From: Cephalotus follicularis
Lineage: Eukaryota; Streptophyta; Magnoliopsida; Oxalidales; Cephalotaceae
NCBI GenBank assembly: GCA_001972305.1
Contig: BDDD01001599.1
Location: 124,001 to 188,000, forward strand
Direction of reading: 5' to 3'
Length of the DNA stretch: 64,000 bases
Under the pieces are notes generated by a model, which saw nothing but the letters and a program-made list of their open reading frames with translations, was not told the origin of the DNA and did no database searches. Positions 174-63,835 of this stretch are shown one piece after another; within the stretch, counting starts at the first letter, position 1, and the number at the start of each line of letters is the position of its first letter. A program made the position numbers and the translations under genes.

Positions 174-38646
<38,473 letters not shown>

Positions 38647-42315: not shown

Positions 42316-45300
42316 TATTAGAGATGAAGTGCTGCGAGCTAGTGTCGAGCTTGTATTTACTTTATCTTGTATAAACGATTTATAAGTTCAATAAAGATGT
42401 TTATGTTTTATCAATGGCTACGAGTTTGTTTCATTAATACATGTTTAATTAATTGTAAATGAATGTCCTGGAATAAAGTTAGAGAACCAAGCTCATGATG
42501 AGATCATAATGTGAGAGTTGGAATCTCGGTATACTTTATTTCGAATCTTCCTGGTCATAGGATTGATACTCAGAGCATGATCAATCCGGATAGACCAGCA
42601 CGTACTGTCAGATCGGTAAGCAGAGGGTGACTGATCTCACACTCACTCGCATGGATGATGCTATGACAACCACGTGGGTGCTCGTTTGACGAGTTCACTG
42701 AAGGTGACTGTTGATAGAATATCTGTATGGAGTTTTACTTACATGTCAGACAGAATTCTTGTCACACCCCGTTTTCCACTTTAACAACATATATGGTTAT
42801 CAGTTATAATAATCCAGCATTCACAAAATACTCATAAATTTAAAACTTTGCGGAAGCATTCGATACACAGGATTAATTTATAAATATTTGCACGCAGCCC
42901 ATACTACGTGCTTACAAGTACAAACTCAAGTTATACATTATATATCTGAAATGTAAATATAACAAACGGAGTACGATTATTATTACATTATTCACTCACT
43001 TTAACAATCTCACAACACAACGAAGCTTCCAAGTATAGCTTCAGCGGCACTTGTCCAAATACCTTCGTCAATCTGAAATTGTAGGTATTAGCCGTTGTCC
43101 TCACTTGGCTAAGTAGGAGTTATGCATGAATGTGAATATAAATATGTAAACATGCATAATAGTTTATTATTTGAAAACAATAATATATGTGTCAATATAT
43201 ATGAAACAATGCCAAGTGGCTACAATCAATCACTTATCACGAATACCGCACAAGGGTACAATCAATCACTACACTGGATGGGTGTCATCTCGTGCTACCT
43301 CCTAGCCCAACCGATGCACCACCTAACTACCACCATGCACTTCGATGAAGATATAAAAGGTAAAAATGACTACCGGCATTAAGCGGGCAGACCACACACA
43401 CACACAATCTGCATAGCAGAACCATTAGGGTGAATAAGATAGAGCCAACTCCTGGCCCATCCGCTCACCCGCCGTAGTCTAATGATACACTCCAATCACT
43501 AAACCATTGGCTTCACTTCAATCACAATCAATCACTCAAAATTACATATATAATGTAATGTAACAATTTGATCTTTAGTAGAGAAAACAATAAAACACTT
43601 TTAGCTCAATGGCATAAAAACACTTTCACTTATCACTTGTTCTCATTATCAGAGAACCACTGTAACACTTTAACACTTTCACTTGCCCTTTCGGGAAACA
43701 CTTGAACACTTTTGATAAAACACTTGAACAATAGTATTTATGTATAAAATACTTTGTAACACTAACAATAAAGGGTGCTTATAGCACTCAGTTGTAGAAA
43801 TCCTTGAAAACACTTTAAACACTAGTATTTGAGAATACTAGATAGATATAAACATCTACAACGATAACAATATGCAATTCAAGGATCAACAATCAATAAA
43901 AAATCATTAACAATCACTACACAATCACTAAACATTCACTTATGCATAAACAACACATAAAGGTGTCGACGTCTATTAAAGGCGTAAACGTGCATCCATT
44001 GCGTCAACGTATAAAACAATCCTTATGGCGTTGACGTATAACTTAGACGTCAACGTGTAGACAGTATCCTTAAGCGTTAATGCGCATACCATGCTTATCA
44101 ATCACAACAGTCTTTTAGGCGTCAACGTATATCAATGGCGTCGACGTGTAGCATGGAAGCCTTACGCGTTAACACTTCACTTAGCGTCAATGCGTTAGGT
44201 AGGAACCTTACGCGTCAATGTGAACATGTGACATCAACCTCTGTTCAGACAGTGACTCTAGGCATCAATACAATAGTTCTAAGGCGTCGACACTTAAGCC
44301 TAAAGCGTCGACTGTCACATTCAAAGCGTCAGCGCTTTATAGCTTGCAGGCAATTTCCAGAAGAACAATCCAGAATAGAACATGCATAATCATAGTCAAT
44401 TTACTTCCAATCAACATGCAATCATATAGCACTATCTAGACATGATATACATACTATATGTTCAAAATCATGTCATAAACCCTACCAGTTAAAGCAGTAG
44501 CAAGCACAGTTGAGCTGCAGGCTCAATTGCAAAACATTTCCAATTTGCTGCCAATTGTCGATTATTACTCCCTTCGCTGCCGAACCAACTACCAGCCCGC
44601 TCACTGCACATACAACACATTTCCATTACGCTCGATACACAGAAACCAACAATGCCGTCACGGGAGCGCCAGCCAGATTCCGGCCAACTCACCCGGCTTG
44701 TGCAACACCCATAAACAGGTTCTACATTGAACGGCCTACACAGAACCGCTCAAGATCCACTGTGACTCGGCGTCAAACGCCGTGTCACGGCCGGCAGTGA
44801 GTTCGACTCACTGAGTCAACTCGTCGGACTTCAACATGTCCGATCACCACCCAAAAATGCCACACAATCATCAGCTCAACACATCACAACCCTAGACTCG
44901 GTGCTAAACGCACGGTCTCAGGCGGCAGTGAGTCGACTCACCGGGTCACCTCAGTCAACTGATTCAGGCCGAAATACACCTTAACAGTGGTCAAAAAAGA
45001 TAGAGTTGGCCTTCAAGACCAAAACCCCCTCCATCCGCGACGCTAACGGCGTCGGAAAACGCACGGTCAACGTGCACAGTGGCCGGGAAGAAAGAGAAGA
45101 AAAAGAGAGAAGAGAAGAAATTACCGTCGGGAGAAGGGTTCAGGCCGCTCACCGTCTCCTCCTGGTCCGGTCGACGCTTCGCCCGACGCCGTTCTTCTCC
45201 GGCGCGCCCTCTCTCCCTCTGTTATGCGCTCTCTCTCCCGATCTCTCACGCTCTCTTTCCCTATGTCTCTTTATTTTTCATTTTGCACGGGCGCATGAGC

Positions 45301-46449
45301 CCGTGTCTCTAACTCTTCTTTCTTTATTTGTTTTCTTGCTTCTCTTCTTGGTATTTTACCAACAAAACATTAAGGACTATATCCCATTTATTCCGCAATT
45401 TGGATATTAATTAATTCAGCCGCCACGAAAACAATCTTAATAATAATGCGGAGACTAGGCTATACTGTCGCGCATTAAAAATAGGCTTTATTAACCGTTT
45501 TTGGCAATGTAATTACGGCTTCAATGCGAAATGCCCTGAACATTTCCTTATCGTTCCACTTTCAAAACTTGACATTATAAAGGGAAGACATCATCAAATT
45601 TGAGAATTTCTCTATTCTAATTAATTCCATAATAAGATTACATTTAGCGAAAAACTCGGGCATTACAATTCTAGTTTTACAGCAGTGCATGTGGTCCTTG
45701 GACATGAGCCGTCACTAGATGTCTTGTGCATAGGGTATTGTGTTTTGATGATGCTTAAATACATATGCTATGAAGTGTATATAGGTATTAGTTGGACATG
45801 GTACGCTTATGTATGGAGGCATGTGAACGAGCAACAATGAATCCATTGCTTCTAGTAAAAGAAGATCATGCTCAAGATGATTTTATTTAGTAATTAAACG
45901 TCTGGCCAGGCTAGCCGCGATATCAAGAGTGTAATATCATTGGTTGAATATTAGAGGGCACTTCTAATATTATTAAGGCTAATGAAAGATAGTCACGAGG
46001 TTAAAAATTAAATTATTGGGGTTTGACATAATCCGTACCCTAGATTTAATTAGAGCATTGTCAATGGAAGGACTATACGTGCATGGACCTGTAAATAGTG
46101 GTTCACAAATTATTAATATTACTTGGGGGTCGTTAGGCATTGCTAGATGTCGATGTCGACCAGTATGAAGCCTGAGATTAAATTGATAAATTAATCTTGG
46201 AAGAAAGAATTAAAAGAGTTTTAATTCAAAGTATTCGAGATAATATTTTTTATGTGATAATAAATATTTAATCGAATATTTGTGAGCGTCACAATATTAA
46301 TCCTACGGCCAGCGTAATAGTGAATCCATAGGGTCACACACAATACGGGCAGATATTTCCAACACGTGATGAGAGAAAAATAATTGGGATGTTATTTCCT
46401 AAATTATATTTAATGAGATTAAATATAAATATAAATATATTTAATGAGA

Positions 46450-46485
<36 letters not shown>

Positions 46486-47094
46486 ATATATATATATATA
46501 ATGAGATTAAATATATATAAATATAATTAATGAGATTAATTATATTAAATAAAGAAAGAGATTTAAAAGGAAATGGATTACTTTTAAGTAAGAGGGATGG
46601 TTGAATTAGGAGACTGTGTTTAAACAGGATTAGTCTAGCAGTTAATATATAAACACATCTCCCTATTCACAATTAGAACTTTTTGAAATAGAACTTTTGC
46701 TCTATTTTGCAAAACCCTAGACACCTCTCTCTTTCTCTCTCTCATACAATCAAGTGTTTATAGTTTGCGAAGCAATTGTGTTGGAGATTGAAGTTTGGTG
46801 TCGATACCTTGGAGGCTTTCTATACTTGGAAGATAGAACCGTTTCAGACGTTAAATAAGTAGATGTGCTTTTGGAAGCAATAAGACTCATTGGAAGAAGG
46901 AAGGAGCCGCTCCATTCATGTGAGTAATTCCGCATGCTCCTCCCTATTGTTTTATATCTAACTATATATGTATGCTCAAAAGATCCTGAAAACGAACCAT
47001 ATGGCTTGATATTCATGAGATGACCACACAATATATATATTAAGATTTTATGCATCTAGATATTTTATTGCTAAATCGCCATAAAGTTTCAACA
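42316..47094 (+). repeat. copia 5' LTR, split by unit F
   Basis: Parts 42316-42759 and 45673-47094 match 62044-63835. After removing unit F and one ATTCT it is about 1.87 kb. It has a TATATAAAC string near 46645 and a TAAA/TA microsatellite (46440-46500) that is shorter in the 3' LTR. It ends TTTCAACA. Confidence 0.88.
42760..45667 (-). mobile_element. unit F: solo-LTR-like element in the copia 5' LTR
   Basis: 2,908 bp, TGTCACACCCCG...GGGCATTACA, flanked by exact ATTCT (42755-42759 and 45668-45672). No retroelement genes. It contains the TTAGCCG...TGGCTAA hairpin (43088-43112), a cluster of about a dozen GCGTCGACGT/GCGTCAACGT motifs (43960-44340), and CT-rich sequence near its right end. Terminal style and hairpin link it to the Tekay-like LTRs and to unit C. 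Confidence 0.83.
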
Positions 47095-47097
47095 AAT

Positions 47098-47107
47098 TGG
47101 TATCAGA
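47098..47107 (+). other. copia primer-binding site
   Basis: TGGTATCAGA begins three bases after the 5' LTR end and matches the initiator tRNA-Met primer site usual in plant copia elements. Confidence 0.75.
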
Positions 47108-47209
47108 GACGGATTTGATGCATTGTATAGTTAGAAACATGTTTGTTGATGATATGCTTGAATTGTTTGGGTTTAATCCGTGAGATGGAAGCATGGGATG
47201 CAAATTTGT

Positions 47210-47530
47210 GATTCCCTGTAGAGCGTCGATGCTTTCGAGAAAAGCGTCGACATCTACGTGCGATACCACTGTAGGAATCACATGACAACGCGTAAAGCGT
47301 CGATGCCTTTGAGAAAAGCGTCGACGCTTAGGCACTAAAGGGCAGACACTTTTGAGAAAAGCGTCGATTATGCGTTAAAACTGGGCCTTCACTCGAGCAA
47401 AACGATCGATGCCTACGCGTAAAACGATAGACTCTTTTGAGAAAAGCGTCGACGCTTACGTGCATTAAGGAACGCAAGCGTCGACGCCTAACACATAAAT
47501 GTTGACGCTTTGTCTTAAAGCGTCGACACT
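47210..47530 (+). repeat. GCGTCGACGC palindrome cluster in the copia leader
   Basis: About ten copies of AAAGCGTCGACGCTTA or close variants (GCGTCGATGC, GCGTCGACAT, GTTGACGCTT) spaced 20-50 bp, many preceded by TTTGAGA. They are dispersed, not head-to-tail. Frames across them are low-complexity artefacts. Confidence 0.8.
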
Positions 47531-48259
47531 CTGGCGTTAAAATTCGGAAAAGAGTTTTCTTCATTTACCCAATCAATTGTCTATATTTTTAGAAATATAT
47601 CTATCAGGTTTATTTGTTGATTCAATGAGATTGAATATGCATGATGGTATGGCTATGGACTCAACCTAGTTTGTCTTACTTTATTCAAGTGTTGAATGTA
47701 TGTTTTTTTTTTTCATATTTTTGGGTTGTAATAAATTTTGAGACTTGCATGTCTCCCTTCTCTCTCTTAATTTGTATCTACAATTCTTCTTCACCTCCTT
47801 GTAACTCCCCTTGATTTATTTCAAGGTTTATGTAGTTTATAGTTGGTTTATGTAATTGAAGATCAGAGCGTCGTAGAGGAAGGAATTTAGAAGAGGATGA
47901 AGATATTACAAGACCTATGCATGTATGGGAACGAATGTATGATTGTAATAACATACCTATGAATGAGACCAGCAGCTTGTTTGAGAGTCAAACAAGTTGC
48001 AATAGTAAAACTCCATAGCCTACCATTAGTTTTATAATATGTATGTGATGCATGTCTAAATTTTGCTCTTGAGGTTCCAACGACCTCCCCCTTAGAGGTT
48101 CCAATGGCCTCTCAATATTATGCCATGTACCTGTAATGAGATTAATAAAGGCTTGGCTAAAATAATAATAATTTGATTATTAATCCTCAATTATACCATG
48201 ATATCAAGTTAAAGCGAAACGGGCACAAGAGAGTGTTCGGTCGTTGCCTTCTGCCATTA

Positions 48260-48612
48260 CAACTTATATAGATGCTTTTGGAAATTGTAAGTGTTTTGGC
48301 CCCCGTCAAGGCTTGCCTTTTCTAGGGACATCTATATGAGTTGAACATGAGATGTCCATACAGATGAATTGTGAAAGTGAATGTTTTGGCCCCCGTCAAG
48401 AGTCACATTCATTGATTCATTGTATGTTGGATGGTAGGTTAAACTTGACTGGAATACATATGGTGTTTTGGCCCCCGTCAAGGTCATATGTACACTAGAG
48501 GCAAAAGCGATGATCGAGAATCATTCTATTGTATGGTTGGCAAGAGTTTGCCTAACTACAACATTCAGTATAGCGTTTTGGCCCCCGCCAAGTTACACTG
48601 AATATGTTGTAG
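48260..48612 (+). other. four stem-loops with a shared apical motif in the copia leader
   Basis: The 18-nt string GTTTTGGCCCCCGTCAAG occurs at 48293-48310, 48383-48400 and 48465-48482, and with one change (GCCAAG) at 48575-48592. Each copy lies between inverted repeats that differ from copy to copy: 15-bp arms 48260-48274/48329-48343; CATACA-ATGAAT 48357-48426 plus an inner 7-bp stem; TACATATG 48455-48462/48485-48492; and CTACAACAT...TCAGTA 48556-48572/48594-48612. The apical motif itself can pair UUGG with UCAA (CCAA in copy 4). It lies between primer site and gag ATG, where retroelement packaging signals usually lie; that role is inference. Confidence 0.8.
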
Positions 48613-48824
48613 GACACTGATCCCCACTCGAAAATGATATCCATGAGACTTGGATTGTTCTTTTTCGTCTCCCATAATATTTGAGGGTTATGGGATTCTC
48701 GTAAAACTGTGGGAGCCTAAGAGGAAAAACACCTAAAAGATTAAAGACCAAATATTTATGGTAATAAACATTTAAATTGAATTTATCTGAATATTGTCTT
48801 TATTTTATATCTGCAGAAATCGCA

Positions 48825-49447
48825 ATGACAAACCCCCTCACTGTAATTCTTGAGAAGAATCAGTTAACAGGTCCAAATTATGTGGATTGGCTACAGAATG
48901 TCAAAATAGTTTTAAATTTTGAGGACATAAATTATGTCCTAGAGGCCCCTATGCCAGCACTGCCTGCTGAAGATGTCTCAACCGAAGATCATGCCATTTA
49001 TAAGAAATGGGTGGCTGATGAAAAGAAAGTCAGAAGCTACCTAATGACATCAATGAGCAATTCCCTACAAGTCCAGCATGAATCGATGCGAGACTCTAGG
49101 AAATTCTTCTACATCTCTGCGAGTTATACGGAGAGACTAGTAGGAATGCTTGGTTCCAGCTCACTGCTGAGCTATATGGCACTAAAATGGATGAAAGATC
49201 TTCTGTTAATGATTATGTGCTTAAGATGATCGATGCGATTGAACGTCTTGCTGCTCTTGGCATCATTCAGGATGCTGAATTAAGCACAGATCTGATCCTT
49301 CATTCGCTTCCACCTTCCTTCTCTGGTTTCATCACCAATTTTAACATGAATAGAATATCAGCTACTCTTCCTGATCTTCTAAACATGTTGAGGGAAGCCA
49401 AAGTGAACATGAATAAGGGCAAGTCGCCAGTCATGAAGGTAGGGTAG
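48825..49447 (+). pseudogene. copia gag, frameshifted
   Basis: ATG at 48825 gives TNPLTVILEKNQLTGPNYVDWLQN, a standard copia Gag start (the open frame extends to an upstream ATG at 48777, less likely). The frame shifts near 49100-49190 and resumes as SSVNDYVLKMIDAIERLAALG and LSTDLILHSLPPSFSGFI up to a TAG at 49445-49447. Confidence 0.85.
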
Positions 49448-50058: not shown

Positions 50059-52389
50059 TGTCACACCCCGCTTCATTAACAACATATAAGTCATGACAAT
50101 CAACATAAATCCAGCTTATGCAAACTATGGTAAATTTAAAACTTTGATTCCATTAACATCTTGCGGAAGCATTTAATAATAAGCTGAACAAGTAAGCAAA
50201 GTCATGCGTCCCATACCACATGATTCCAACATTTAATATCATTAAGCCATTGTCAATTGCCCTCAAACGGAGCGTGATCAAAAGTCGATCAACATCATTA
50301 ATACATTAGTACAGTAATCCAAAATAAAACATGTCTCAATACATTGTTTTAACATTTATTCAAGCAAATAAAACTCCATCTCCCCTGATTCGGCCGCGCA
50401 CAGTCGAAATCCATATCACTACATCAATCTGTAATAGTAGGGGGTTAGCCTTTGTCCTCACTCGGCTAAATTATAAAAGTAATTTAGGGTTAGTGATAAA
50501 AATGCCATGTAATAAATGCATCGTGATGCAATACATACTATATCTCGATGTATATATATGCATATGCCAAAAGACTACAATCTCACAGTTCACAATCATA
50601 TCCAAAGGACCAATCAATTCACAATGGGTACGAAGAGCGTCCCCAACTCCCGGCCCCAACGTCTTACATTCTGACATCGGCCCCCCAACTCCTGGAAGCA
50701 CGAGCAGGTCACGGTACAGTGAGTTACCCAGCCATCTCCTGGCCCCTGGGTCAACCCTACCACTAGCCATCGCTGGCATCTCCGCCACGCAACTAGTACG
50801 GCAACAATCACAATCAACAATCAATTCGATTCACAATTTGTTTTCCAAGTAGTTTATAAGTTAAAAATTCTTGAAAACAACACATTTTCACGATGTACAA
50901 CTCTTTGAACAGTTCACGATCTTTTGGAAGCCATTTTCACAATCTTTCGAAAATATATATTTTGCTTAAAACACACATTTTCGAGTAAAGTAATGATTTA
51001 TAATAATCATGTATGCACTTCCAAAAATGATAAAACATTTCACAATCATTTCACAATTCAGTTCATAACAATACACAAGGCACACATATGCTCATAATGC
51101 AAGTCAGTCCCTCAACAGTCGGCTGTCCCTTCATGACAGTCGGTTGTTCCCTCTCAACAGTCAGCTGGCCTAGTTTGGCAGTCGGCTGTCTACCGATCAA
51201 CAGTTGGCTGTCCTCTATTGGCAGTCGGCTGCCCTCTTGGCAGTCGGCTGCTTCGTAAACAGTACGCGTCTTCTACATCGCTACTCACCCCAGCTTCCTC
51301 AGCGAATCTGGATAAAGTGACACGTGGACAGTCGACTGTCATCCCAAACAGTCGGCTGTGCCATCTACAGTCGGCTGCCCTCTCTTGGCAGTCGACTACA
51401 CAACAAGCAGGAGGTGACCTCCATTAAAATGCATGAACAGTTGACTGGCTCCTTAGCACAGTCGGCTGTTTCCCTCGAGTAGTCGGCTGTTCGCACTGAA
51501 CAGTCGGCTAGTACCCTTGAACAGTCGGTTGTCCTCCTAGGACAGTCACTACTCGTGCGAGCAGTGCACGAAAACAGCAGAAAATACATGCAATTCTCAT
51601 CCCAATCCAAACACAACAGAGCATTCATCAACAACAACACATTTTATGCTCATATCACAGTCTACTGCATGCATTTCATCTATGAAAATCCATTATAACG
51701 GAACTTAAATCACAATTATAAAATCCCCTACCTTTGAATTCCAAGTTAGGAATTGCAATCCACCTCTTTAAGTCCCGGATCCGGGGCGTTGAAAGCTCCA
51801 AGGTCTGTCCAATGGCTCCAACAGGTCTAGTTCTCCCACTGGTTCGAGCCTCCAAGCCCCCGGTTGAAGTATGGAGCATTTGGGTCTAACCTCTCTCTCT
51901 CTCTCTTTTCCTCTCATTCTTCCCCTCACAACTCACTATTTCTTCCTTCTCTATGCAATGCTGATGGAAAGAGGAGGAGAATGTGTGTTTTTATGGGAAA
52001 AACGCGTTTCCCCTTTTTCTCTATATTTCTTCTGACATTTCCCATCAATCACTCCCCCCACCTGCCATGACAGGCCTGGCACGCATGTTATGCTGTCTGA
52101 ACCAATGGCAGTCGACTGTCTCATCTTGGCAGTCGACTGTCTCTACCGACAGTTTTCCAGCCGGCTGTTTTCCCCAACAGTCGGCTGGTTCCACATAAGG
52201 GGTTCCAATCGATTGTCTCTCTCTGACAGTCGGCTGCCCGCCCTGTTTCCACACTTTCTTCAATTACTTTATCTTTTCATGCAAGCTTTAACATCACAAT
52301 ATGAGAAAATCCATAAGTCTCATTAATTTAATGCATAGATTACATCGGGAAATACAATATTACATTCAATGAAAATCCCAGGCGTGACA
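50059..52389 (-). repeat. Tekay-like 3' LTR
   Basis: 2,331 bp. It contains a GTTAGCC...CGGCTAA hairpin (50445-50469) missing from the other LTR by deletion, and about 20 CAGTCGGCTG/CAGTCGACTG motifs at 51110-51550 and 52100-52230. Confidence 0.88.
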
Positions 52390-52434
52390 TCCACCCCTCT
52401 TTCGAGGAATTTCGTCCTTGAAATTGAAACAGTA

Positions 52435-57169: not shown

Positions 57170-59362
57170 TGTCACACCCCGCTTTATTAACAACATATAA
57201 GTCATGGTAATCAACATAAATCCGGCTTATGCAAAATAAGGTAAATTTAAAACTTTGATTCCATTAACATCTTGAGGAAACATTTAATAATAAGCTGAAC
57301 AAGTAAGCAAAATCATGCGTCCCATACCACATGATTCAAATATTTAATATCATTAAGCCATTGTCAATTGCCCTCAAACGGAACGTGATCAAAAGTCGAT
57401 CAACATCATTAATACATTAGTACAGTAATCCAAAATAAAACATGTCTCAATACATTGTTTTAACATTTCTTCAAGCAAATAAAACGCCATCTCCCCTGAT
57501 TCGGCTGCGCACGATTGAAATCCATATCACTGCATCAATCTGTAATAGTAGCTACAATCTCACCATTCACAATCATGTCCAAAGGACCAATCAATTCACA
57601 ATGGGTATGAAGAGCGTCGCCAACTCCTGGCCCCAACGTCTTACATCCTGACATCGGTCCCCAACTCCTGGAAGCACGAGCAGGTCACGGTACAGTGAGT
57701 TACCCAGCCCTCTCATGGCCCTTGGGTCAACCTTGCCACTAGCCATCGCTGGCATCTCCGCCACGCAACTAGTATGGCAACAATCACAATCAGCAATCAA
57801 TTCGGTTCACAATCTATTTTCCAAGTAGTTTATAAGTTAAAAATACTTGAAAACAACACATTTTTACAATGTACAACTCTTTGAATAGTTCACGATCTTT
57901 TGGAAGCCATTTTCATAATCTTCCAAAAATATATATTTTGCTTAAAACACACATTTTTGAGTAAAGTAATGATTTATAATAATCATGTATGCACTTCAAA
58001 AAATGATCAAACATTTCACAATCAATTCACAATTCAGTTCATAAAAATACGAAAGGCACACATATGCTCAGAATGCAAGTCAGTCCCTCCAGTCGGCTGT
58101 CCCTTCATGACAGTCGACTGTTCCCTCTCAATAGTTAGCTGGCCTAGTTTGGCAGTCGGCTGTCTACCTATCAACAGTCGGATATCCTTTATTGGCATCC
58201 AGCTTCCCTCAAACAACAGTCGGCTGCCCTCTTGGATGTCGGCTGCTTCGTAAACAGTACGCGTCTTCTACATCGCTACTCACCCCAGCTCCGCGACCTC
58301 AGCGAATCCAGATAAAGTGACACGTGGACAGTTGACTGTCATCCCAAACAGTCAGCTGCGCCATCTACTGTCGGCTACCCTCTCTTGGCAGTCGACTACA
58401 CAACAAGCAGGAGGTGACCTCCGTTAAAATGCATGAACAGTAGACTGGCTCCTTAGCACAGTCGGCTGTTTCCCTCGAGTAGTCGGCTGTTCACACCGAA
58501 CAGTCGGCTAGTATCCTTGAACAGTCGGGTGCTCCTGCGAGCAGTGCGTGAAAACAGTAGAAAATACATGCAATTCTTAGCCCAATCTAAACACAACAGA
58601 GCATTCATCAACAACAACACATTTCATGCTCATATCACAGTCTATTGCATGCATTTCATCTATGAACATCCATTATAACAGAACTTAAATCACAATTATA
58701 AAATCTCATACCTTTGAATTCCAAGTTAGGAGTTGCAATCCACCTCTTTAAGTCTCGGATATGAGGCATTCAAAGCTCCCAAGTCCGTGCAATGGCTCCA
58801 ACAGGTCCGGTTCTCCCACTGGTTCGAGCCTCCAAGCCCCCGGTTCAAGTATGGAGCATTTGGTTCTAACCTCTCTCTCTCTTTTCCTCTCCTTCTTCAC
58901 CTGACAACTTACTATTTCTTCCCTCTCTATCCAATGCTGATGGAAAGAGGAGGAGAATGCGTGTTTTTATGGGAAAAACGTGTTTCCCCTTTTTCTCTAT
59001 CTTTCTTCTGACATTTCCCATCAATCACTCCTCCCCCTGCCAAGACAGGCCTGGCACGCATGTTATGCTACTAACCCATGGCAGTCGACTGTCTCATCTT
59101 GGCAGTCGACTGTCTCTACCGACAGTTTACCAGCTGGCTGTTTTCCCCAGCAGTTGGCTGGTTCCACTTAAGGGGGTCCAGTCGACTGTCTCTCTCTGAC
59201 AGTAGGCTGTCCGCCCTGTTTCCACACTTTGTTCAATTTCTTTATCTTCTCATGCAAGCTTTAACATAACAATGTGGGAAAATCCATAATTCTCATTAAT
59301 TTAATGTATAGATTACATCGGGAAATACAATATTACATTCAATGAAAATCTCAAGCGTGACA
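57170..59362 (-). repeat. Tekay-like 5' LTR
   Basis: 2,193 bp, collinear with 50059-52389 but lacking a block of about 130 bp around the hairpin (junction near 57549) and with other small indels. Carries CAGTCGGCTG motif clusters at 58090-58530 and 59080-59210. Confidence 0.88.
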
Positions 59363-59379
59363 TGTTATATTTTGTTTAA

Positions 59380-62028
59380 TAATATGATTTATGCAAAATG
59401 TTTCCTTCATGATGGATTATATATATTGAGTAAACATGAGACTGTTTTCAATATGCAAAAAGAAAATAAAAGAAAAAGAGATGAAGTTAATCAATCCTAC
59501 CTATGGCATTGCAGACTTGGTCATATAAGTGAGAAAAGAGTCCGCAGGTTGATCTCCGATGGATATTTTGACTTTTCAACGTATCAACCACTTCCAACTT
59601 GTGAACCCTGTCTTAAAGGTAAAATGACCAAATCTCCCTTCACCGGGAAAGGGGAGAGGACCCAGAACTGCTAGGTCTAATACTAGCTGATGTATGTGGA
59701 CCAATGACAGTTGTGGTCCGAGGTGGATATTCCTACTTCATAACCTTTACGAATGATCATTCCCGTTTTGGTTATTTGTACCTGATGCGGCACAAATCTG
59801 AAGCCTTTGAAAAGTTCAAAGAATTCAGACTGGTAAAAGTCTGAAAACTCTTCGATCAGGTCGAGGTGGTGAGTATCTCTCCACTGAGTTTTTAACTTAT
59901 CTCAGAGATAATGGGATTATCTCTCAGTGGACCCCTCTGAGAACACCACAGCATAATGGTGTGTCTGAAAAGAGGAATCGCACTTTGCTAGACATGATGA
60001 GTAGCATGATGAGTGATGCTGGACTTCCACTGTCTTTTTGGGGTTATGCATTAGAGACTTCTATTCTCTTATTGAACAGGACTCCAACAAAATCTGCTCC
60101 CAAAACACCATATGAGATATGGAATGGGAAGAAACCCAATCTTAGTTACCTAAGGATATGGGGTTGCCCTGCATATGTCAAGCAGGCAACAACAGATAAA
60201 TTGGAATCTAGGTCCATTAAATGTAAACTTGTGCGATATCCTAAAGAAACACAAGGATATTACTTGTATTATCCACCTAACAACAAAGTGTTTGTAGCCA
60301 AGCATGCTACTTTTCTTGAGAAGGACTTCCTGTTGGAAGATAGTAGTGGGAGTATGATAGAGCTAGATGAATGATCTAAAGAACCACAAGTTGATGGCCT
60401 ATCCAATCATGTTCAAATTAATGTTCCTGAAATGTCAGCTACCACAGATACACAACCTCTGCGTAGAACTACCCGATTACCTAGGGAACTTGAGAGATAC
60501 TATGGTAGCTTTCTCATTGAAGGTACCCAAGAGGTAAATCTCATGAATGATGATCCGGTAAGCTACAAAGAAGCCATATGCGATATGGACTCAGAGAAAT
60601 GGCTTGATGCCATGAATTCTGAAATGGAATCTATGTACTCCAATAAAGTTTGGGATCTAGTGGATGCACCCGAAGGGGTTAAACCCTTAGGTTGCAAATG
60701 GATTTTCAAAAGGAAGATTGGAGATGAAGGAAAGGTGAAGACCTTTAAAGCTAGGCTAGTAGCCAAAGGCTACAACGAATGGGAAGGGATTGATTATGAG
60801 GAAACTTTCTCTCCTGTCGCCATGCTTAAATCCATTCAGATTTTACTTGCTATAGCTGCACATTTTGACAATGAGATATGGAAAATGGATGTGAAAACTA
60901 CTTTTCTCAATGGAAACATTGATGAAGACATTTATATGACTCAATTTGAGGGTTTCATATCCACTGGTGAGGACCCGAAAGTGTGCAAGCTTAAGAAGTC
61001 CATTTATGGACTAAAGCAAGCTTCGAGGAGTTGGAACATCTGATTTGATGAGACAATCAAAGAGTTTGATTTCATTAAGAATTGAGATGAACCATGTGTG
61101 TATTAAAAGGTTAGTGGGAGCTCAATGACTTTTTTGGTCTTGTACGTTGATGACATACTCCTTATAGGAAATGATGTGATCATGTTGTCAAACATGAAAG
61201 CCTAGTTATCCAAAGTTTTCTCCATGAAAGTCTTGGGAGATACTTCCTATATCCTAGGTATAAAGGTCTATAGAGATAGATCAAAAGGGATGATAGGGTT
61301 GTCCCAGTTTTTGTACATTGTCAGAGTGCTTAAGCGGTTTAGCATGGAAAATTCCAAGAAAGGTTATCTACCTCTATGAATTTCACTTTCTAAGCAGTTG
61401 TCTCCCAAGGTAGCTGAAGGAAAACAAAGGATGATGCACATTCCATATGCTTCAGCAATTGGAAGCATCATGTATGCTATGCTTTGCACTAGACCAGATA
61501 TCGCATATGCTGTAAGTGTTACAAGCAGATACTAGTCAGATCCAGGTGAGAGTCACTGGAAGGCTGTCAAAGATATCCTCAAGTACCTTAACAGGAGTAA
61601 GGATTTATTCTTAATGTATGGAGGAAAAGGTTTGAAGATTAAGGGTTTTACTGACTCTAATTTTCAGACAGATGTGGATGATTCAAAATCAACATCGAGG
61701 TTTGTGTTCACCTTAAATGGTGGAGCAGTGAGCTAGAAGAGTTCCAAACAACCTACCACTGTAGATTCAGTGATTGAAGCTGAATACATTACGACATCGA
61801 AAGCTGCCAAGGAAGGTGTATGGATGAACTAGATCGCACTCAAACTCTAAACACATTCTTAGGCGCTTTCACCTTATACGTGAGATCGTTGATCGTGGAG
61901 ATATAAAAGTGGAATGTGTTCCAAGTGAAGACAATATTGCAGACCCGCTTACTAAGGTACTATCAAAGGCGGTCTTTGACAGACACCTTAATGCAATGGG
62001 TATGAGACACTATGGCAACTGGCTTTAG
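59380..62028 (+). pseudogene. copia integrase, RT and RNase H, decayed
   Basis: Integrase: LWHCRLGHISEKRVRRL and CEPCLKGKMTKSPFTGKGER, then DVCGPMTVVVRGGYSYFITF and FGYLYLMRHKSEAFEKFKEF with frameshifts, TPQHNGVSEKRNRTLLDMM-type core end. RT: EKWLDAMNSEMESMYSNKVW, CKWIFKRKIGDEGKVKTFKA, KMDVKTTFLNGNIDEDIYM, SIYGLKQASRSWN, LYVDDILLIGND. RNase H: IPYASAIGSIMYAMLCTRPD, FTDSNFQTDVDDSKSTS and VPSEDNIADPLTK, stop at 62026-62028. At least eight in-frame TAG/TGA codons, mostly where CAG/CAA or TGG is expected. Confidence 0.88.
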
Positions 62029-62043: not shown

Positions 62044-63835
62044 TGTTAGAGATGAAGTGCTGTGAGCTAGTGTCGAGCTTGTATTTAATTTATCTTTTAT
62101 AAACGATTTATAAATTCAATAAAGATGTTTATGTTTTATTAATGGCTATTCATTCATTTCATTAATACATGTTTAATTAATTATAAATGAATGTCCTGGA
62201 ATAAAGTTAGAGAACCAAGTTCATGATGCGATCATGATGTGAGAGTTGGAATCTCGGTATACTTTATTTTGAATCTTCCTGGTCATAGGATTGACACTCA
62301 AGGCATGATCAATCCGGATAGACCAGCACGTATTGTCAAATCGGTAAGCACTGATCTCACACTCACTCGCATGGAGACAACCATGTGTGTGCTTGGTTGA
62401 CGAGTTCACTGAAGGTGACTGTTGATAGAATATCTGTATGGAGTTTTAGTTACATGTCAGACATAATTCTAGTCTTAAAGCAGTGCATGTTTTCCTTGGA
62501 CATGAGCCGTCATTGGATGTCTTGTGCATAGGGTATTGTGTTTTGAAGATGCTTAAATATATATTCTATGAAGTGTATACATGCATTAGTTGGACATAGT
62601 ACGCTTATGTATGGAAGCATGTGAACTGGCAACAATGAATCCATTGCTTCTAGTAAAGGAAGATCATGTTCAGGATGATTTTCATTAGCGATTAAACCTT
62701 TGGCCAGGCTAGCCGCGATATCAAGAGTGTGATATCATTTGTTGAATATTAGAGGGGCACTTCTAATATTATTAAGGCTAATGAAAGATAGTCACGAGAT
62801 TAAAGATTAAATTATAGGGGTCTGACATAATCCGTACCCTAGATTTAATTAGAGTATTGTCAATGAAAGGACTATACGTGCATGTACCTGTAAATAGTGG
62901 CTCGCAAATTATTCATATTACCTGGGGGTCGTTATGCATTGCTAGATGTCGATGTCGACTAGTAGAATGCCTCAGATTAAATTGATAAATTAATCTTGGA
63001 AGAAAAGAATTAAAAGAGTTTTAATTTGAAATATTCAGGATAATATTTTTTATGTGATAATAAATATTTAATCGAATAATTGTGAGCATCACAATATTAA
63101 TTCTACGGCAAGCGTAATAGTGAACCCATAAGGTCACACACAACACGGGTAGATATTTTCAGCACGTGATGAGAGAAAAATAATTGGGATGTTATTTCCT
63201 AAATTATATTTAATGAGAATAAATATATATATATATATAATGAGATTAAATATATATAAATATAATTAATGAGATTAATTATATTAAAGAAAGAAAGAGA
63301 TTTAAAAGGAAAGGGATTCCTTTTAAGTAAGAGGGATGGTTGAATTAGGAGACTGTATTTAAACAGGATTAGTCTAGCAGCTAATATATAAACACATCTC
63401 CCTATTCACAATTATAACTTTTTGAAATAAAACTTTTGCTCTATTTTGCAAAACCCTAGCCACCTCTCTCTTTCTCTCTCTCATACAATCAAGTGTTGAT
63501 AGCTTGCAAAGCAATTGTGTTGGAGATTGAAGCTTGGTATGGATACCCTTGAGGCTTTCTATACTTGGAAGCTAGAACCGTTTCAAACGTTCAACAAGTA
63601 ACTGTGCTTTTGGAAGCAAGAAAACTCATTGGAAGAAGGAAGGAGCTGCTCTATTCATGTGAGTAATTCCGCCTACTCCTTCCTATTATTTTATATCTAA
63701 CTATATATGTATGCTCAAAAGATCCTGGAAACGAACCATATGGCTTGATATTCATGAGATGATCACACAATATATATATATTAGGGTTTTATGCATCTAG
63801 ATATTTTATTGCTAAATCGCCATAAGGTTCCAACA
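62044..63835 (+). repeat. copia 3' LTR
   Basis: 1,792 bp, TGTTAGAGATG...GGTTCCAACA, matching the split 5' LTR with scattered substitutions and a shorter TA/TAAA microsatellite (63223-63240). It lacks unit F, so F inserted after the copia element. Confidence 0.9.

Follow-up and report, generated by a model that had tools for sequence, protein, structure and literature searches.

What holds four copies of a short motif at the tips of stems that share few letters with one another, in a part of a plant retrotransposon that is not translated? The question was raised by a 64,000-nucleotide stretch of the Cephalotus follicularis genome (hereafter, the window), in which a preliminary description based on the letters alone had pointed to serial RNA hairpins with a constant apex in the leader of a copia element and had proposed that their structure is under selection. 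Here, we describe the element and its array, follow both through sibling copies and related families in the same genome, and weigh what the array may do.

The array sits in the leader of a copia element

The window harbors an old copia element with an RVT_2 reverse transcriptase and a gag start at position 48825. It is a Ty1/copia LTR retrotransposon, as established by its LTRs with a target-site duplication, its RVT_2 domain and its primer-binding site. The 5′ LTR (42316..47094, + strand) is split by an insertion of ~2.9 kb (~42764-45666), and its two pieces share 89.9% and 88.5% identity with the 3′ LTR (62044..63835, + strand), the ends of both LTRs having been placed by eye. The flanking target-site duplication is 5 bp long with one mismatch (GGATC before the 5′ LTR, TGATC after the 3′ LTR). 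The primer-binding site, TTGGTATCAGAGA, is read from the sequence 2 nt past the LTR end (47097..47109, + strand), is similar in sibling copies, and is what we take to be a match to the initiator tRNA. The start of gag is a 134-codon ORF from an ATG (48825..49229, + strand), recognized as an ORF and by protein matches, of which 26/26 were to Cephalotus follicularis and 18/26 carry PF14223. The gag start of the window itself gave no Pfam match at E 0.001, and no zinc knuckle was found in the window's gag in three frames up to the nested insertion. A nested gypsy-type element, recognized by its ORFs and with similar ends at ~50059-52390 and ~57170-59363, splits the copia element, whose reverse transcriptase part of pol lies at 60432..61043 (+ strand; PF07727 RVT_2, E 8e-47).

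Other repeats were seen in the window. CAGTCGGCTG-type repeats occur at 51100-52250 within the LTR-like end of the nested element. An exact 502-base tandem duplication (100% identity) in a gypsy-like coding stretch at 8640-9643 is either a recent event or an assembly artefact, and the stretch at 25552-25888, which aligns with itself (87-90% identity) when shifted by 81, 135 or 189 bases, is probably a tandem repeat with a unit of 54 or 27 bases.

Four hairpins present the same apex

As the preliminary description had reported, four copies of an 18-nt motif spaced 82-110 nt apart lie on the + strand, at 48293..48310, 48383..48400, 48465..48482 and 48575..48592, all four counted as exact; the last has a T-to-C change that no other row shows in slot 4. 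Their spacing is 90/82/110, and chance matches with up to 3 mismatches averaged 0.06 in dinucleotide shuffles of the window. Each copy is predicted to cap a + strand hairpin with the loop CCCC, the four hairpins having 36 bp (48259..48344), 29 bp (48356..48426), 20 bp (48444..48504) and 22 bp (48557..48612). The fold of 48250-48625 reached -126.9 kcal/mol (z -6.1), a value equalled by 0/100 shuffles, and mean pair probabilities of hairpins 1-4 in a 2.4-kb leader context were 0.94, 0.87, 0.95 and 0.95. The further claim that the arms pair with their own partners and not with those of other copies likewise stood, the own right arm being the best partner for 4/4 copies in a matrix of arm pairings.

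Individual energy tests differed between copies. Compared to shuffled arms, 0, 18, 114 and 0 per 1000 hairpins were equally good for copies 1-4, and compared to arms taken from random positions of the window, 12, 19, 210 and 54 per 1000; for arm-to-arm duplex energies, random positions did as well in 3, 114, 458 and 413 of 4000 cases. Copies 1 and 2 thus stand alone and copy 4 does so in part, whereas copy 3 depends on evidence from siblings. One argument of the preliminary description had to be abandoned, namely that the G-U to G-C change inside the apex of copy 4 speaks for pairing: in slot 4 this change is present in 1/53 rows, that of the window itself, and the same C letter recurs in two rows of slot 1 and two of slot 2. 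An Rfam search of 46800-49400 yielded no family at gathering score; its weak matches (47211-47336 and 47435-47529, - strand) fall outside the array. The leader also holds, close to the primer site (47220-47530), several GCGTCGACGC-type palindromic repeats with low-energy folds on both strands.

The array is common to a large family of elements

Exact matches to the 18-mer numbered 2,617 in the Cephalotus follicularis genome, compared to 2 for the reversed control. From these, about 100 were taken in contig order and grouped into 55 loci, 52 of which carry four motif copies (up to 5 mismatches) on one strand, with a spacing near 90/82/110 in nearly all; L062 (74/78/110) is the clearest outlier, and L041, L043 and L047 are the loci without a four-copy array. 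The array, whose presence in sibling elements had been named as a check on the original claim, belongs to a large family as a constant feature and is no peculiarity of the window. Over 55 rows, which include that of the window and exclude L041, divergence within the array averaged 11.8%, and two large subfamilies could be told apart. When slots are compared, identity is 0.91 across the 18-mer and drops to 0.29 and 0.26 in its flanks, both edges being sharp. In 53 rows, the 72 apex columns hold 40 private and 5 shared alleles; the latter are all C-to-T or G-to-A, of which four affect CpG and one a CCG site, a pattern that the decay of methylated DNA would be expected to produce. Searches for relatives among viral contigs, by motif pattern and by reverse transcriptase, found none.

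Variants that spread within the family tend to keep the stems paired

Most genomic copies are, we infer, dead, in which case variants private to one copy would reflect neutral decay, and shared variants would be those tolerated in replicating elements. When minor alleles were sorted by the number of copies carrying them (54 rows, L047 dropped), pairs were kept by 30/134 private alleles, 24/67 of those in 2-3 copies, 11/22 of those in 4-7 copies and 25/31 of those in at least 8 copies, the private pair-breaking variants amounting to 104/134. This contrast is largely a transition effect, shared alleles being mostly transitions, and is overstated unless corrected; it was therefore rerun on transitions only. 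With the structure of the window, 26/47 private alleles versus 24/29 of those in at least 8 copies were then pair-keeping (p 0.024), and with the structure of sibling L033, 25/47 versus 26/27 (p 6e-5); exclusion of CpG columns from the transitions gave p values of 0.004 and 2e-5, respectively.

Because a structure derived from the window is biased to the alleles of its own lineage, each row was also used as the reference, or the reference lineage was omitted. Counting non-reference alleles only, with each of the 54 rows as reference in turn, the pair-keeping fraction was 0.80 for shared and 0.21 for private alleles; slid partners, for which every third row served as the reference, gave 0.32-0.48. 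On a tree of 53 rows drawn from columns outside the array, with branches leading to the reference omitted and medians taken over references, the ratio of pair-keeping to pair-breaking changes was 53:13 on internal branches and 211:214 on terminal ones (median p 6e-6, largest 0.006). Since a G-U pair of the sense strand becomes an A-C mismatch in the complementary strand, an excess of new G-U over new A-C on internal branches points to the sense RNA. The ratios were 29:6 on internal and 132:80 on terminal branches (median p 0.017, largest 0.66), and the contrast is not significant with every reference row; we consider this bias good but not decisive evidence that the sense RNA is the strand selected.

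Overall, 93.3% of cells were paired, versus 34-43% in slid structures. Covariation in excess of a shuffled control, on which the preliminary description had staked its claim, was found for cells, 48 of which were two-sided compared to 26.1 +/- 6.1 after shuffling (0/500 shuffles with as many), but not for pairs, of which 17 had a two-sided change within the window family compared to 14.0 in shuffles (82/500; not significant).

The excess of pair-keeping is confined to the array. Among alleles seen at least 6 times in 53 rows, 28/39 kept pairs in the four hairpin windows, compared to 25/87 in ten other leader stretches folded alike (a sum that omits one overlapping stretch, 1/7) and 17/42 in three stretches of the start of gag. 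In gag, synonymous and other alleles stood at 41:61 when shared and 55:309 when private; shared alleles there are more often synonymous, and the method thus detects a selection already known. Taken together, it is very likely that the RNA structure of the array is selected.

Related families keep the hairpins and change the loop

A Gag pattern matched 1,686 genomic places (control, 3), 34 of which were retrieved, 20 picked for differing spelling and a further 14, array surroundings only. Repeats before gag revealed two further families, F2 and F3, with the array at nearly equal distances; L123 turned out to be a member of the window family. In F2 (seven loci: L114, L121, L122, L128, L130, L136 and L137), the apex reads TTGTTGAG-CACA-CTCAAG, with 880 exact matches in the genome and 0 in the control, and in F3 (14 loci, L113 with a single apex), it reads TTGTTGGG-TAAA-CCCAAG. 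Slot 3 of F3 (TTGATGAG-TAAA-CTCATG) and slot 2 of F2 (GTTTGGG-CCACA-CCCAAG or GTTTGGA-CCACA-TTCAAG) have the stem next to the loop altered on both sides and the loop unchanged. The loop position is occupied by CACA in 22/25 detected F2 apexes and by TAAA in 43/48 F3 apexes, an agreement that is partly built in since apexes were detected by motif likeness; the counts omit five matches that lie beyond the array, at -224 to -231, and one L133 apex detected by local folds only. Local folds placed the loop exactly less often (14/25 in F2) and, where they did, mostly with 20-37 enclosing pairs. The loop thus appears, with computational support, to be the same within the hairpins of one element and different between families.

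For a comparison between families, 9/55 window-family, 5/7 F2 and 8/14 F3 rows, selected for well-kept apexes, were aligned. Identity to the array of the window was 0.58-0.61 for F2 and 0.52-0.54 for F3. Imposed on F2, the structure of the window left 372/532 cells paired (0.70; slid structures, 0.35-0.51), and on F3, 619/834 (0.74; slid structures, 0.33-0.44). Majority pairs changed at both letters were kept or broken at 18:8 in F2 and 26:7 in F3, compared to 7:8, 7:11 and 8:8 (F2) and 10:10, 11:13 and 10:11 (F3) in slid structures; one-sided changes were about even (16:18 in F2, 16:14 in F3). Hairpin 2 of F2 fitted the structure of the window poorly (62/145 cells), its slot being either refolded or misaligned. 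Such compensated pairing across families indicates that the slots are homologous and that the loop was switched in them while the stems drifted with compensation. The layout of the hairpins would accordingly predate the window family, F2 and F3, a conclusion supported by computation.

Nine further loci (L104, L107-L110, L115-L117 and L119) have distant Gag proteins, whose starts share 30-39% identity with that of the window in the three compared by local alignment. These loci hold 13 hairpins of at least 16 bp with a NACA loop, and 13/13 lie within 15 nt of the slots of the window; shuffled stretches had a mean of 0.3 and at most 2 (30 shuffles). As the NACA class was picked post hoc, only the agreement in position is independent. 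L104 has GACA in 4/4 slots, the other NACA-bearing distant loci have one or two such hairpins, and in three of the nine (L110, L115 and L117) none was found. Nor was a clear array found in L111, L118 and L120, the last apparently broken by an insertion. On the simplest reading, an ancestral leader had four hairpins with a NACA-type loop, which would have turned into CCCC in the window family and into UAAA in F3.

Siblings and these other copia families of the same genome together sustain what had been proposed from the window: an array sited between primer site and gag on the coding strand, a constant loop on stems that change yet remain paired, and selection on the coding-strand RNA structure, as evidenced by shared variants that retain pairs. 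Inverted repeats are common in mobile elements, and the hairpins might instead be a neutral leftover of inverted duplications or a feature acting at the DNA level, such as a cruciform. The many private variants that break pairs (104/134) would suit this explanation, but shared variants are biased to pair-keeping and G-U is favored over A-C, the stems are compensated at ~39-48% divergence, the loop is identical between slots with unrelated arms, and none of the slid or shuffled structures tried had an equal bias. We regard it as highly improbable.

A putative leader intron surrounds the primer site and the array

A 5′ splice-site-like GTGAGTA lies near the LTR end (46920..46926, + strand), recognized as a sequence match, and a 3′ splice-site-like stretch, T-rich and then TATATCTGCAG, just upstream of gag (48794..48816, + strand); both assignments are putative. 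GTGAGT near the LTR end is found in 19/21 aligned LTR rows. Of the two F2 LTRs compared, that of L121 has GTAAGT 177 nt before the primer site, which is the distance in the window, and that of L122 has no GT at the matching place. A T-rich stretch ending in AG precedes gag in 14/15 rows from several copia Gag families, L114 having AA, and in L104, L109 and L119 it lies ~35-45 nt further upstream. Together, these signals suggest a leader intron of ~1.9 kb (46920-48816) containing the primer site and the array, both of which, if the intron is real, would be kept in unspliced RNA only. A TATA-like stretch was seen by eye at ~46646. Between the presumed transcription start and gag, there are 67 ATG triplets on unspliced RNA and 1 if the leader is spliced.

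These 67 triplets ahead of gag, along with long stable hairpins upstream of it, could be taken to mean that the array is an internal entry or shunt structure for the translation of gag from unspliced RNA. A spliced leader with its single ATG would however need no bypass, and a shunt needs no four copies of one loop; we find a role of this kind very unlikely.

The array being flanked by 5′ and 3′ splice-like signals, the hairpins might also serve in the control of splicing or export, by binding within the leader intron not Gag but a host factor that retains or exports the unspliced transcript. NACA-type loops are present in families whose Gag starts, in the three compared, are 30-39% identical to that of the window, as would suit a conserved host partner, and a host protein reading NACA loops is the main rival to packaging by Gag. 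Yet the loop has changed in the slots of the window family and of F3, which is odd if the host protein that reads it is unchanging, and this explanation seems to us unlikely on the whole.

A multivalent packaging signal as the preferred reading

Our preferred reading, to which we assign a probability of roughly 0.55, is that the array is a cis-acting RNA element of the copia retrotransposon that mediates multivalent packaging through Gag, the leader intron being spliced from messages. The stems would serve as holders of largely arbitrary sequence, displaying the same loop in four places for one and the same partner; a loop repeated fourfold on stems of variable letters suits one partner that is bound repeatedly. 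This partner would most likely be the element's own Gag, which would bind the genomic RNA multivalently and package it. Removal of a leader intron reaching from 46920 to just before gag would strip the primer site and the array from translated messages, and unspliced genomic RNA would be the RNA picked for packaging. Packaging by Gag is the best guess in view of a loop that is common to an element's hairpins but varies from family to family, and of an array located alongside the primer site; more broadly, a multivalent packaging or genome-selection signal is a moderately likely function.

More tentatively, and with the balance of our judgment against it, the loops may act as a lineage-specific tag, the NACA type of an ancient four-hairpin leader having been swapped in concert to CCCC or UAAA in some copia families, with stems that went on drifting under a constraint to pair. 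If so, families residing in the same genome could recognize their own genomic RNA among that of relatives. The N-terminus of Gag in L121 scored 65/85 against the window and 59/85 against L122, and L121 and L122 both have CACA loops and arrays that are 81% alike, compared to only 61% between the window and L121. L121 thus shares its loop with L122 despite a Gag start closer to that of the window; the loop type is not tied to this part of Gag, which counts against packaging by a simple correspondence of loop and Gag. An exchange of leader and gag between copia lineages may have taken place.

The loops were also considered as one half of a 5′-3′ circularisation signal, paired with a G-run in U3, TGGGGGTCG (46124 and 62923). 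This G-run is complementary to the CCCC apex loop, energetically good and kept in most window-family rows having the site. The candidate was rejected because the pairing does not follow the loop change: at the place of the G-run, in the two F2 LTRs compared, one element with CACA loops has GGGGGG and another GGGAG.

Relation to known systems and significance

Hairpins with a short conserved tetraloop also occur in retroviral leaders before gag. Those of alpha- and gammaretroviruses, with GACG tetraloops, have a part in packaging (PMC516450) and resemble the array in their short conserved loop; the array differs from them in having four long hairpins at fixed spacing and a family-specific loop shared between slots, and in belonging to a plant copia element.

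The copia-type Ty1 of yeast likewise has a 5′ leader RNA structure tied to dimerisation and packaging, in which two mutually complementary kissing loops, SL1a and SL3a, have been proposed (PMC5454406). The loops of one element's array, in contrast, are alike and non-complementary, and inspection revealed no kissing loops of the Ty1 type, with the caveat of a GGCC palindrome in the window-family apex. Dimerisation through the hairpins, by kissing of loops or by self-complementary stems that open into duplexes between RNAs, could draw on the length of these stems, on this 4-nt palindrome (apex-apex duplex, -8.6 kcal/mol) and on the location of the Ty1 dimer sites, in the leader as well (PMC5454406). 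Nevertheless, CCCC, CACA, UAAA and GACA are not self-complementary, making the kissing of like loops unlikely, the F2 and F3 apexes have no GGCC, and the complementary G-run of U3 does not track the loop change in the two F2 LTRs compared. Dimerisation as the function of the array thus strikes us as quite unlikely.

In single-stranded RNA viruses and HBV, packaging-signal-mediated assembly involves several stem-loops that have a loop motif in common and act jointly (PMC3593212, PMC6281560 and PMC7612645); those signals are dispersed over the genome, whereas the four of the copia array are clustered in an untranslated leader. Among plant copia elements, BARE of barley keeps the RNA that is translated apart from the RNA that is replicated, partly through splicing. 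What is spliced out there is 104 nt at the end of gag, unlike the presumed intron of the window, which lies in the leader and contains primer site and array; the accessible part of the source (PMC3735527) makes no mention of stem-loops for BARE. Sireviruses, like the window element, have repeated conserved motifs in non-coding parts; theirs are CGG-CCG palindromes in the LTRs and upstream of env and copies of the PPT, and for these, no hairpin or stem-loop is mentioned in the corresponding part of PMC2829016.

No report of a hairpin array in the leader of a plant copia element or retrotransposon was found in a literature search by titles and the beginnings of abstracts that left subscription literature mostly uncovered, and the letters of the motif had no match in the literature searched; this is weak evidence that no such array had been described in a plant copia leader. 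To our knowledge, little is known about how plant copia elements select their own RNA for packaging. The comparison of variants that have spread with variants that arose after insertion provides a cheap, within-genome test of RNA structure. Finally, a single genome with probably more than 1,000 copies of the array, in several families that differ in the loop their hairpins share, offers natural variants for the study of loop recognition.
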